Of a stretch of 64,000 nt of DNA, positions 20,632 through 30,188 are shown one piece after another. The number at the start of each line of letters is the position of its first letter. Position 1 is the stretch's first letter. The translations under genes were made by a program, and so were the position numbers. The DNA comes from Planctomycetota bacterium (GTDB lineage: Bacteria; Planctomycetota; Phycisphaerae; Phycisphaerales; SM1A02): positions 186,001 to 250,000 of the forward strand of contig JAIOPG010000005.1 of assembly GCA_021414025.1 (NCBI GenBank), read 5' to 3'. The notes under the pieces are model-generated. The model was not told where the DNA came from, made no database searches, and saw only the letters and a program-made list of their open reading frames with translations.

Positions 20632-23600
20632 GTGACCAACACCACCAAAGAACTCAGCAATTCGTTCTCGACCGGCAATGGCGGTGGAGATTTTGAGGCC
20701 CATGTTCAAGCATCGTTTGTTGCACTCATGCTGACCGGTGGATACTCCCCGTGTTTACCGTGCTGGCCAATCAAAAAGGTCAAACTCCAAGGCAAATTTC
20801 TTGACTACAACACTGATGATCTCATTGTTTTTGTGGAAAGTGAGGATGGCCAACAAAAGCGCAAACTCCTTGGACAGATCAAGCACTCGATCGGTATTAC
20901 CGAGCAACACTCCAAATTTGGGGAAGTAATTCAGGCAGCGTGGAATGATTTCAACAATCCAACAATATTCACACACGGCCAAGATGCGATTGCGCTTATC
21001 ACTGGCCCGCTGAGTACAACCGACATCAACGATGTAAGACCTCTTCTAGAACGAGCACGACATGTCGAAAATTTTGTTGAGTTCTTCAAGAGCATGGAGC
21101 TCGCTAGATTTGTCAGCAATGGACAGCGAACAAAGTTAAAGGCGTTTCGAACGCACTTGCAAAAAGCGAACAAGAATGAGGAGGTGTCTGAGGAAAGAGT
21201 CTTTGAGTTTTTGAGACATTTTCACCTCCTTGGTTATGACCTGGATATCAAGGCGGGCGTGACCCTCTCACTGCTTCACTCGTTAATCGGACAAAATTCG
21301 CAAGAGAGTGTGCCTGGGTTGTGGGCACTGCTAGTTAATGCGGTTCGATCGTCAAACAAGAACGCGGGTACCTTGACAAATGAGTCTCTTTCGGATGATC
21401 TGCGAACCGCATTCACAAAGCGAGTTCATCAATCCATTCCGGCCGAATATGCCGTGCCCCTGCTCCCTGTAGTTCAACCCGAACTGAGCAAACTTACCTA
21501 CGCGACCGAGTTGTCAATCGCCTGTGTTCTGGGTTCATGGAACGAAAAAACAAATGCGGACCGTATCATTGTTGAAAAACTTTCTAAAGAAGACTTTTCT
21601 ACATGGATTCGTAAACTTCGGGAGTCACTGCAACAACCCGAGAGCATCCTCTCATTAAAAGATGGGAAATGGTGGGTAATTGATCGGCTCCGATCATGGC
21701 AAGTACTAGGACCAAAACTCTTCGACGAAAACTTGGATGTCTTCAAAGATTGCGCCGTTTCTGTTCTAACCGAGCGCGACCCCAAATTTGATTTGGCTTT
21801 GGAAGAACGCCATGCGGCCAGCATTCACAATAAAGTAATAAAGCACTCAAAACATTTGCGAAAGGGTTTTGCAGAAACCCTGGCACTTCTTGGCACTCAC
21901 CATCAAACACTAACTTTCTGTAGCCCCCACAAACCAGAATTAACAGCGGTTCTTGCCATCCGCGAAATTCTCAACGACGCCGACTGGTCACGCTGGGCCA
22001 GCTTGAACAATCTGCTTCCGCTCCTTGCGGAGGCTGCTCCCGGTGAGTTTCTCGATGCGTTCGAGGCAACACTCGAGAGAGATCCTTGTCCGTTTGATGA
22101 AATATTTGCGCAGGAAAGTGGTGGATTTCTGGGAGGCAACTACATGACCGGTGTGCTTTGGGCGTTAGAGACACTGGCTTGGGATGCGAATCATCTCAGC
22201 CGCGTGGTGATTTGCTTGGGAGAACTTGCCTTGCACGATCCTGGCGGTCGTTGGGCCAATCGTCCAGTCAACTCTCTTACCGCCATCCTGTTGCCATGGT
22301 TGCCACAAACATGCGCCTCGGCTACGAAGCGTTATGCGGCGGTGTCAACGTTACTTAAGGAACTTCCAGATATTGGCTGGAAATTGCTTATGAGGCTTCT
22401 ACCCAATTCAGACTCCACAACATCCGACACGCACAGACCAGCATGGCGAAAAACAATTCCCGATGATTGGAAGAAGGGTGTTTCGCATGGCGAATACCGG
22501 GAACAGATTGAACACTATTCAGAAATGGCGTTCACCGCCGCTAAGGGCAACAGTAAAAGGTTGGCTGTACTCATCCAACACATGGACAACCTGTCACCAC
22601 CCACGCGCAAACAACTTTTAGTGTATCTCGGGTCTGAAGCGGTGATCACAATGATAGAAGTCAACAGACTGGACCCGTGGACCGAGCTCATTAAGCTGGT
22701 AGCAAAACATAGAAAATTTTCGGACGCTAAATGGGCGATGAAACCAGAACAGATCGACGCAATTGACGCTCTCGCCAAACAATTGGCGCCGACGAATCCC
22801 GCATTCCGTCACCTTCGTCTCTTTACCGAACACGATTTTGACTTATTCGAAATGAAGGACGACTACGAAGGGCAACAAAAAGAACTGGAAGAACGTCGCC
22901 AAAAGGCCATAGAAGAAATTTTTGCAACCGGGGGGGCGCTGTCGGTACTTGATTTCGCCAAGACCGTCCCATCACCCTGGCGCGTAGGTGTGGCATTGGG
23001 ATGCATAACAGACAAAGAAGTTGATGGCGTGATCTTGCCTGAACTGCTTGAGTCCGAACAGAAAGCGCTTGTTCAGTTTACGGGTGGGTTCGTACGAGGA
23101 AAACTTCGTTGCCACGGTTGGCAATGGCTTGATGACATCGACACTTCGCAATGGAGTCCTGTGCAAATCGGGCAGCTTCTCGCTTTCTTGCCATTTACGG
23201 CAGATACATGGGATCGCTCGAAACGTCTTCTTGGGAGAAATGACTTTGCGTACTGGAGCAAGACGAATGCTGATCCTTACGGTGATGAGGCGGAACTCGA
23301 AACTGCTATCGATCAATTGATAGTACACAACAGGCCGGATGCGGCATTGCGATGTCTCTATGCGATGCTCGACAAAAAGCCATTTGACAGTAGCCGAGCA
23401 GTACAAGTGCTGTTTGCTGTGCTTAAGTCACCAGAAAGCGTGCATTCGATGTATCACCCCATCATTGAGATCATCAAGGCGCTTCAGAACGACAAGGGTA
23501 CGAATCCCGATGATCTCTTCAAAATTGAATGGGCGTACCTTCCGCTATTAGATCGTCACCGCGGCGCTTCTCCCAAATTAATTGAGCATCGACTAGCGAA

Positions 23601-24162
23601 GGAGCCAAAATTCTTCTGTGAAGTCATTCGATTTGCTTTTCGTTCAAAAAAAGAAGAGCGCCCAACCGAGGAGCTCCCCAAAGAAAAACAAAACATTGCA
23701 GAAAATGCCTATCGCCTATTGAGCGAGTGGCAAACTCCGCCCGGCTATCAGGCGGACGATACATACGATGGTGACGCTTTTGCAGGCTGGCTAGAAGCGG
23801 TGAAGAAAGAGTGCGCGGAAACCGGTCATCTGGAAGTTGCAATGTCAATGGTGGGTCATGTGCTCGTCTATGCACCGCCAGACCCAGGCGGATTGTGGAT
23901 CCATCGCTCAGCTGCGGAGGCGCTCAACGCCAAAGACGCTGAAGAAATGAGAAGTGGATTTGGATCCGAGTTATTCAACTCACGAGGCTTCCACTGGGTC
24001 GACCCTACTGGGAAGCCTGAGAGAGAACTTGCAAGCAAGTATCGGGAGCAGGCCGAAGCCGTTGAAGTCGCTGAATACCACCGGTTAGCGATTACGCTCC
24101 GAGAACTAGCCGCGTCTTATGAACGAGAAGCCGATGGGCTGCTGTTGAGAGCCCCGCGATAA
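20632..24162 (+). CDS. candidate defence protein: Cap4/DUF4297-like nuclease domain with long helical-repeat region
   Basis: An 1176-residue protein of unknown function. The GTG start is set by GAAGGA at 20621-20626. Residues 15-90 carry a PD-(D/E)xK-type pattern as in Cap4/Avs N-terminal nucleases: GGGDFE (E22), TDDLIVF (D62/D63) and GQIKH (Q82, K84). About 1000 residues of predominantly helical sequence follow, with repeated Leu/Trp-rich stretches (LWALETLAW, ILLPWLPQ, GWKLLMRLLP). There is no Walker A that I can find, so it does not look like a STAND NTPase as in Avs. Base composition is visibly AT-richer and codon use differs from der and the following operon, which suggests transfer. It has no same-strand partner: it appears as a one-gene insert. 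Function is inferred, not shown. Confidence 0.75.
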   Translation: MTNTTKELSNSFSTGNGGGDFEAHVQASFVALMLTGGYSPCLPCWPIKKVKLQGKFLDYNTDDLIVFVESEDGQQKRKLLGQIKHSIGITEQHSKFGEVIQAAWNDFNNPTIFTHGQDAIALITGPLSTTDINDVRPLLERARHVENFVEFFKSMELARFVSNGQRTKLKAFRTHLQKANKNEEVSEERVFEFLRHFHLLGYDLDIKAGVTLSLLHSLIGQNSQESVPGLWALLVNAVRSSNKNAGTLTNESLSDDLRTAFTKRVHQSIPAEYAVPLLPVVQPELSKLTYATELSIACVLGSWNEKTNADRIIVEKLSKEDFSTWIRKLRESLQQPESILSLKDGKWWVIDRLRSWQVLGPKLFDENLDVFKDCAVSVLTERDPKFDLALEERHAASIHNKVIKHSKHLRKGFAETLALLGTHHQTLTFCSPHKPELTAVLAIREILNDADWSRWASLNNLLPLLAEAAPGEFLDAFEATLERDPCPFDEIFAQESGGFLGGNYMTGVLWALETLAWDANHLSRVVICLGELALHDPGGRWANRPVNSLTAILLPWLPQTCASATKRYAAVSTLLKELPDIGWKLLMRLLPNSDSTTSDTHRPAWRKTIPDDWKKGVSHGEYREQIEHYSEMAFTAAKGNSKRLAVLIQHMDNLSPPTRKQLLVYLGSEAVITMIEVNRLDPWTELIKLVAKHRKFSDAKWAMKPEQIDAIDALAKQLAPTNPAFRHLRLFTEHDFDLFEMKDDYEGQQKELEERRQKAIEEIFATGGALSVLDFAKTVPSPWRVGVALGCITDKEVDGVILPELLESEQKALVQFTGGFVRGKLRCHGWQWLDDIDTSQWSPVQIGQLLAFLPFTADTWDRSKRLLGRNDFAYWSKTNADPYGDEAELETAIDQLIVHNRPDAALRCLYAMLDKKPFDSSRAVQVLFAVLKSPESVHSMYHPIIEIIKALQNDKGTNPDDLFKIEWAYLPLLDRHRGASPKLIEHRLAKEPKFFCEVIRFAFRSKKEERPTEELPKEKQNIAENAYRLLSEWQTPPGYQADDTYDGDAFAGWLEAVKKECAETGHLEVAMSMVGHVLVYAPPDPGGLWIHRSAAEALNAKDAEEMRSGFGSELFNSRGFHWVDPTGKPERELASKYREQAEAVEVAEYHRLAITLRELAASYEREADGLLLRAPR

Positions 24163-28685: not shown

Positions 28686-30188
28686 ATGCCGCCACCGCGG
28701 ATGGCTCAATTCAATCCGAGAGAATTCATGGACGATGCTGTCGTGGCCATGCACCGTTCCGTCCCCGAACCGCGCGCGGACGGGAAGGTGAGCCCATTGG
28801 TCGGAGCGGTTCTTTGGAAGCCGGACGGAACCACAGACTCCGCGTGCCGGGGCGAATTGCGAGATGGTGATCACGCCGAGTACGCGCTGCTGGAACGAAA
28901 GAATCGCGATAAGAAACTTGACGGCGCGAGGCTTTTCGTGACGCTCGAACCTTGCTCTCCCGGTTCACGCAGTCATCCGAAGTCGAGCTGCGCGGAACGG
29001 ATCGTTCGCGCACGGATCAAGGAAGTCTGGGTCGGCATCGAGGACCCCGACCCGACGGTGGATCGCAAGGGAATCAAGTACCTGCAGGACAGCGGCGTGA
29101 CGGTCACCATGTTCGATCGCGATTTGCAGGAGCGCATTCGCTCGATGAACAAGGCGTTCATCGCGCAGGCGATGGAAAGGGCAGCGGCAGCCCACGAAGA
29201 CGAAATACCGAAGGCGGTCACGCTGTCGCCGCTGGAAGACGCCTTCACCGCTGCCGAGACGAAGGATTTTTCAACCGAAGCCCTCATGCGGTATCAGGCC
29301 GACGGCCGCATCGGCGAGGCGGTGGATTCGCCCGCCTTCAATCGTCGACTGGTCCAACAGGGCTTGCTCAAGCAGGAAAATGGGAAATCGGTTCCGACCG
29401 GATTCGGACTTCTGCTCTTCGGCAAGGAGCCGAGAACGGCCATGCCGCAGGCCGGGCTTTTGGGCACGATTCACTTTGCTGACGGAACCGAAGAACTGAA
29501 AGACTTTGACGGCCCGCAGGTGCTTGCGCCCGCGCAGGCGCTTCAGTGGCTGCGCGACAAGCTGCCCAATCCGATTGATCGCTCAGCAGCGCGTCGGACG
29601 CTGACGAATGATCCGCTCTTTGAACTCGTGCGCGAAGGCATTGTCAATGCGCTCGTGCATCGTGATTACTCGATCGCCGGTGCAAAGTGCCAGCTGATCG
29701 TCACGCCGGACACCATCATGGTCAAGAGCCCCGGCAGGCCGGTGGACCCGATTTCGGTGGAACAGATGCAGAGTTTCAATGCTCCAATGCTGAGTCGAAA
29801 TCCGATCCTGCATCACGTCTTTGCCCGGATGGAGCTGGCCGAAGAGCGCGGGCTGGGGTTGAAATCCATGAAAGCAAATGCCGAAGTCATGGGATTGCCG
29901 CTGCCAAAATATGCGTGGGAGGATCCCTATTTGGTGCTGACGCTCTACCGCAGTTCCGCCGCCGCGGTGAAGGGACTTGGAGTTGACGTCTCGGAAGCAT
30001 TGACCAATGCCGAGCGGCTGGGATGGAAATGGTTAGCCACCAAAGACACAATCACGACGGCGGAGTACCAGTTGTCGCTGCATGTGCCAAACCGCACGGC
30101 CAAGAATCATCTGAAGAAGTTCACCGACTTGGGCTTGCTCAAGATGGTTGGTGCCGGCCGTGCGACTCGTTACAAAGTGATTCGGTAG
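28686..30188 (+). CDS. nucleoside-deaminase / GHKL ATPase / winged-helix fusion
   Basis: A 500-residue protein with three parts. Residues 10-150 are a RibD/dCMP-deaminase-like zinc domain: the catalytic HAE motif (H63-E65), EPC (C90) and a second ligand Cys at C102, with VWVGIEDPDP after. Residues 230-425 resemble the C-terminal ATPase of AlbA_2/COG2865 'RecG-like' regulators: GLLLFGKEP, the Bergerat N-box REGIVNALVHRDYS (E317, N321), VKSPGRP and the ERGLGLKSM loop. Residues 435-500 form a winged helix (TTAEYQLSLHVPNRTAKNHL). The AlbA_2 domain that normally leads such proteins is replaced by the deaminase. Starts at 28701 or 28728 are possible. It could be a nucleotide-sensing regulator or a defence protein; no function is established. 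Confidence 0.8.
   Translation: MPPPRMAQFNPREFMDDAVVAMHRSVPEPRADGKVSPLVGAVLWKPDGTTDSACRGELRDGDHAEYALLERKNRDKKLDGARLFVTLEPCSPGSRSHPKSSCAERIVRARIKEVWVGIEDPDPTVDRKGIKYLQDSGVTVTMFDRDLQERIRSMNKAFIAQAMERAAAAHEDEIPKAVTLSPLEDAFTAAETKDFSTEALMRYQADGRIGEAVDSPAFNRRLVQQGLLKQENGKSVPTGFGLLLFGKEPRTAMPQAGLLGTIHFADGTEELKDFDGPQVLAPAQALQWLRDKLPNPIDRSAARRTLTNDPLFELVREGIVNALVHRDYSIAGAKCQLIVTPDTIMVKSPGRPVDPISVEQMQSFNAPMLSRNPILHHVFARMELAEERGLGLKSMKANAEVMGLPLPKYAWEDPYLVLTLYRSSAAAVKGLGVDVSEALTNAERLGWKWLATKDTITTAEYQLSLHVPNRTAKNHLKKFTDLGLLKMVGAGRATRYKVIR

Follow-up and report, generated by a model that had tools for sequence, protein, structure and literature searches.

A RibD-like zinc deaminase on a Schlafen-type HATPase–winged-helix body: a candidate accessory effector associated with restriction–modification genes

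Our study examined a window of 64,000 nucleotides, the whole stretch of DNA that was analysed, from a Planctomycetota bacterium (GenBank assembly GCA_021414025.1, contig JAIOPG010000005.1, positions 186,001 to 250,000 of the forward strand), and was concerned with one of its genes, referred to here as P0001. The reading frame at 28686-30188 (+) is stop-free over 500 amino acids, and an alternative start at the ATG of 28701 is likely, because the N-termini of homologues begin near the MAQFNPRE of the window protein. An earlier note, made from the letters of the sequence, had described a zinc deaminase site (H63, E65, C90 and C102) followed by a GHKL N-box (E317/N321) and a winged helix, and this order was borne out by Pfam, by conservation and by a structural model (Table 1). 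Pfam matched dCMP_cyt_deam_1 (E 5.9e-8) and HATPase_c_4 (E 5.7e-15) in P0001, and phmmer matched it to RibD chains and 3LMM in the PDB. An AlphaFold2 model with 33 sequences as input (mean predicted local distance difference test, pLDDT, 86.5; predicted template modelling score, pTM, 0.85) placed the deaminase at residues ~10-168, the COG2865-type middle region and HATPase at ~183-424 and the winged helix at ~433-498. By VIA-align, RibD (2b3z, Z 20.4) was the structure closest to residues 9-167, with lower scores for Rib2 (15.2) and TadA (about 14.7); the best structural match of residues 149-456 was the COG2865 protein DIP2311 (3LMM, Z 22.6).

Table 1. Position of the P0001 gene and its parts in the window
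Feature	Position	Strand	Evidence
Deaminase-HATPase-winged helix gene (P0001), 500 aa	28686..30188	+	translation; start 28686 or 28701
RibD-like zinc deaminase domain, residues ~10-168	28713..29189	+	Pfam, phmmer to RibD chains, AlphaFold model, VIA-align
H63-A64-E65, zinc ligand and catalytic Glu	28872..28880	+	invariant, 40-41 homologues
C90...C102 zinc ligands, family-specific loop R95/P98/K99	28953..28991	+	conservation counts
COG2865-type middle region, residues ~183-308	29232..29609	+	hhalign to AlbA_2-HATPase proteins, E 1e-51
GHKL-like HATPase_c_4 domain, residues ~309-424	29610..29957	+	Pfam, invariance, 3lmm Z 22.6
N-box E317/N321	29631-29669	+	Pfam, invariance
G2-like E386..G391	29841-29858	+	Pfam, invariance
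C-terminal winged helix, residues ~433-498	29982..30179	+	model secondary structure, COG2865 C-terminus alignment, weak PF22168

About 42 homologues of the same architecture were found in roughly 15 bacterial phyla, and the catalytic residues were invariant over identities of ~35-72%. Residues were counted over up to 42 sequences and invariance was scored wherever a sequence covers the position; on this basis H63, E65, C90, C102, R95, E317, N321, H325, R326, Y328, S348, G350 and G391 did not vary. Loss of the zinc ligands among homologues, which the earlier note had named as an observation that would overturn its proposal, was looked for, and the ligands were retained in all 40-42 covering sequences (H63, together with the catalytic E65, in 40-41 homologues, C90 in 41/41 and C102 in 42/42). 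The loop between the two cysteines carries R95 in 42/42 and K99 in 40/42 sequences, and E317 and N321 of the NALxHRDY N-box were present in 42/42. The description of the middle of the protein as a GHKL ATPase stood as regards the domain and its N-box, but the word 'ATPase' is only partly secure; the G1-box Asp (DxGxG) is not present and S348-P-G350 occupies its place (Ser in 41/41), so ATP hydrolysis is not to be assumed for the family.

The same note had suggested that the deaminase sits where COG2865 proteins carry AlbA_2, and this held when the deaminase-bearing homologues (group A2, 33 members) were compared with 40 COG2865 relatives from a genome scan (group A3, L063-L104). HATPase_c_4 (PF13749) was present in 33/33 members of A2 and dCMP_cyt_deam_1 in 32/33, with PF04326 (AlbA_2) absent from the families listed for all 33, whereas the comparison set had HATPase_c_4 in 40/40 and SLFN_AlbA_2 in 38/40, together with the same SPGG consensus at the G1 box. 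Profile-profile alignment of the two groups using hhalign extended over 311 columns, covering P0001 residues 183-500 only (E 1e-51), and the N-terminal domains stayed unaligned. There is one common body with two different N-terminal enzymes.

Several variant arrangements were also seen. At L022:9000-10859, a related deaminase domain (R.HPK..C loop) is joined to TPR repeats instead, and the deaminase clade thus occurs on more than one partner. In a shortened relative, L186 (reverse strand, an open reading frame of 319 amino acids), the N-box is missing and the deaminase runs directly into the latter half of HATPase_c_4, together with the winged helix, and at L017:8866-10542 an XRE-type helix-turn-helix is fused in frame ahead of the deaminase. 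The copy in a Pedobacter isolate (L061:9980-12748) is broken, as reverse-strand open reading frames resembling an insertion sequence split the deaminase from the ATPase part.

A check for homologues in defence islands, proposed in the earlier note, was positive with respect to restriction–modification (R-M) genes. Flanks of up to 10 kb on each side, some of them on short contigs, were searched uniformly for R-M proteins using phmmer, and the control consisted of 27 RibD loci, taken with comparable flanks from the same host set. R-M genes lay within 10 kb of 21/44 family loci, compared to 0/27 RibD loci (Fisher p 6e-6). Some of the search seeds were taken from the tested loci, although the result stands without those loci (16/39 compared to 0/27, p 6e-5). 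Comparison loci of the AlbA_2 type were near R-M genes in 8 of 42 cases, fewer than in the deaminase family (p 0.006).

Pfam and PADLOC confirmed HsdM, HsdS, HsdR, a type III-like ResIII with N6_N4_Mtase, and HmaA/HmaB at these loci, and PADLOC found type IIG R-M genes in addition at L046 and L049. The typical order was hsdS-[gene]-hsdR (L025, L035, L042 and L053), alongside a type III-like helicase-[gene]-methylase order (L014 and L033) and HmaA-HmaB-[gene]-HmaB-like (L030), and the family gene overlapped the upstream gene at start and stop in L014, L017, L025, L033, L034 and L053. Extra effectors were inserted in the type I operons of L019 (SIR2, SIR2_2), L037 (AAA_13, PrrC/RloC type) and L038 (OLD TOPRIM), and the YhcG nuclease was also among the genes adjacent to family members in the same operons. 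Several of these neighbours (SIR2, OLD, PrrC-like, Schlafen and caspase-like) belong to types already known as suicide effectors. The L017 operon holds a separate AlbA_2 (SLFN_AlbA_2) protein and RhuM between hsdM and hsdR, and at L054:4214-11479 a methylase, a helicase, a caspase-like protein and the deaminase gene form one apparent operon. HsdR occupies two frames downstream of the deaminase gene at L035:2525-5773 and L042:2204-5366, which may reflect a frameshift, phase variation or an assembly error.

Full-length homologues numbered eight others in 392 Planctomycetota genomes, and GTDB genomes from many phyla contributed >30 more loci. The gene was found in 1/181 genomes of its own family and 12/392 of the phylum, and its absence from the other 180 family genomes makes horizontal acquisition probable; the genes neighbouring P0001 were not syntenic in the family genomes. 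In the tree, the Planctomycetota do not form one clade and require at least 5 changes along starred branches; P0001 itself clusters with a bin labelled 'Bacillota', a contig of Myxococcota and a second planctomycete bin. This pattern points to frequent horizontal transfer, with the caveat that several of the contigs are metagenome bins. Phylum labels rest largely on such bins, and some are evidently mislabelled (L035 is titled Klebsiella and L025 is a 3.9-kb contig). A phage origin was rejected, as no phage record matched the deaminase domain and viral contigs matched the chassis only, and plasmid carriage was likewise rejected, as no plasmid record covered the whole of P0001.

On the opposite strand, a cupin gene and an AlkZ-like gene flank the window gene, and no R-M gene was recognised among its scanned neighbours. 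Its closest relative, in L025 (71-72%), sits inside a type I operon between hsdS and hsdR, and a probable N6 methylase is encoded elsewhere in the source genome (C7:150260). Because no R-M partner lies beside it, the window copy would act alone or be a relic. At 20632-24162 (+), the window also encodes a protein of 1176 amino acids that matched nothing in Pfam, NCBIfam, PADLOC or the PDB sequences. It lies in a stretch with a GC content of 47-51%, compared to 60-65% around it, and looks like another recently acquired gene; its N-terminal motifs read as those of what is possibly a nuclease-type defence protein.

With modest confidence, we propose that the P0001 family represents a horizontally moving, R-M-associated accessory (back-up) effector that carries a small-molecule, probably nucleotide, deaminase on the Schlafen chassis in place of the RNase. 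What was computed is the architecture, the invariant catalytic residues, the placement in R-M operons, the lack of linkage with riboflavin genes and the horizontal spread; a gating chassis, a nucleotide substrate and an anti-phage outcome are inferred. The GHKL-like and winged-helix chassis would keep the RibD-derived zinc deaminase in check until an infection-linked trigger (foreign or damaged DNA, inhibition of R-M or a nucleotide signal) freed it. The freed deaminase would act upon a small substrate that carries phosphate, a nucleotide being the most likely one, and phage replication would be starved or the cell would abort, so that R-M would have a second line of defence behind it. The parent architecture, a Schlafen RNase with a minimal histidine kinase and a winged helix-turn-helix, was described in a January 2026 BREX survey (PMC12839542) as a back-up suicidal effector of BREX in at least 1017 taxa. 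The P0001 family has the body of those effectors, bears a deaminase where they bear the RNase, and is more strongly linked to R-M.

The nearest enzyme to the deaminase domain by sequence and fold is RibD, which would favour an enzyme of metabolism (riboflavin, folate or pyrimidine salvage) to which a regulatory domain has been fused, although we consider this very improbable. The zinc-centre columns H63, A64, E65, P89, C90 and C102 are common to the family and RibD, but the residues that are near universal among 25 RibD sequences are replaced: the Asn of NPxVG is found in 25/25 RibD compared to 4/40 family members, the His of GxH in 25/25 compared to none among the listed family residues (G in 37/40), and the Thr of G(K/R)TPPC in 24/25 compared to none among those listed. 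Conversely, R55, E57, L58, R59, D62, K72, K99, R105 and R110 are specific to the family. P0001 scored 58 bits against the NCBIfam RibD model TIGR00326 (cut-off 156), at model positions 18-135 only; this match covers the deaminase part, and no reductase domain was found in P0001. Pairing with riboflavin genes, which the earlier note had also listed, if constant among homologues, as evidence against its proposal, was not found, as a separate full RibD is present in 27/30 host genomes and in the source genome of the window (C7:421289, 290 bits). RibD loci, unlike those of the family, were never near R-M genes (0/27). As the hosts keep a separate true RibD, the signature substrate residues are replaced and the gene context differs, a role in riboflavin synthesis was rejected. 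The conservation pattern instead suits a working enzyme whose substrate is other than that of RibD and is probably phosphate-bearing.

Two further explanations were weighed. COG2865 proteins have traditionally been annotated as predicted regulators of transcription, and P0001 may regulate the R-M operon or other genes, with the winged helix on DNA and the HATPase and deaminase sensing ATP and a pyrimidine-like ligand that is turned over or merely bound. The winged helix seen in the model and alignment and the XRE domain at the N-terminus of the L017 protein agree with this; however, the catalytic Glu and all zinc ligands do not vary across 40+ divergent sequences, a constancy for which a sensor that only binds its ligand would have no need. 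At many loci the gene sits in mid-operon, with hsdS or a helicase upstream, and solitary copies have no shared neighbour; we regard a regulator, the main rival, as unlikely. Alternatively, the chassis may bring the deaminase to foreign DNA (or RNA) that the R-M helicase handles in an unmodified or unwound state, where the bases of the invader would be edited. Such a nucleic-acid deaminase would fit the linkage to translocating helicases (type I, type III-like and Hma), the basic residues found only in the family (R55, R59, K72, R95, K99, R105 and R110) and the DNA-binding winged helix. RibD-like folds normally act on small molecules, though, and the fold of the domain is closer to RibD (Z 20.4) than to TadA (about 14.7), with no family-wide nucleic-acid binding insert recognised, making this distinctly improbable. 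Between the two roles inferred in the earlier note, a nucleotide-deaminating effector and a pyrimidine-sensing regulator, we favour the effector. Several points weigh against it: about half of the loci, including that of the window, lack R-M genes within 10 kb; a regulator would also account for the winged helix and the in-frame XRE fusion; the Asp that canonical GHKL ATPases have in the G1 box is a Ser; and the deaminase-HATPase-winged-helix family is not covered by any PADLOC model.

If the effector reading is true, deaminases join the enzymes that restriction systems carry as second-line effectors, the widespread and poorly understood Schlafen HATPase-winged-helix body is a reusable control module, and one trigger mechanism becomes open to study through two chemically distinct read-outs. 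More tentatively, and with a fair prospect of being wrong, the Schlafen-type body may be a general sensor chassis that takes various N-terminal effectors, its deaminase version being a new R-M-coupled class of defence; once restriction had been breached, this version would deaminate a nucleotide or edit the DNA of the invader.

No PADLOC model fits P0001; matches to models of proteins associated with prokaryotic Argonaute (pAgo; Aga models) are partial, fall between residues 138 and 361 and reach as far as the HATPase region, and the dCTPase profile gave a weak partial match (E 0.023 over 50 residues). The joining of a deaminase to an AlbA_2/HATPase-type body is undescribed in the open literature searched, with an earlier mention elsewhere possible. 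If the substrate is a nucleotide, the mode of action would resemble that of the AvcD dCTP deaminase and RADAR, but these systems show no convincing profile match and have different partner domains, whereas the P0001 family lies in R-M operons. The PrrC/RloC, OLD and SIR2 effectors share the same kind of operon, sometimes as adjacent genes (L037, L038 and L019), yet differ in enzyme chemistry and chassis. The deaminase domain of RibD/RibG is alike in fold, zinc centre (HAE...PC...C) and the DPxP..G...L strand-helix, and differs in its reductase partner, its signature residues, its shorter C-C loop, which in the family is longer and carries R95 and K99, and its gene setting, which is riboflavin rather than R-M. 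Bacterial Schlafen proteins (AlbA_2-HATPase_c_4-winged helix, COG2865, as in 3LMM DIP2311) resemble P0001 in the middle region, the GHKL-like domain and the winged helix, but bear an N-terminal AlbA_2 RNase where P0001 bears a zinc deaminase, and are less often linked with R-M (8/42 compared to 21/44). The P0001 protein is best likened to a Schlafen-type accessory protein of R-M/BREX in which the effector has been exchanged, and is probably an undescribed anti-virus enzyme.
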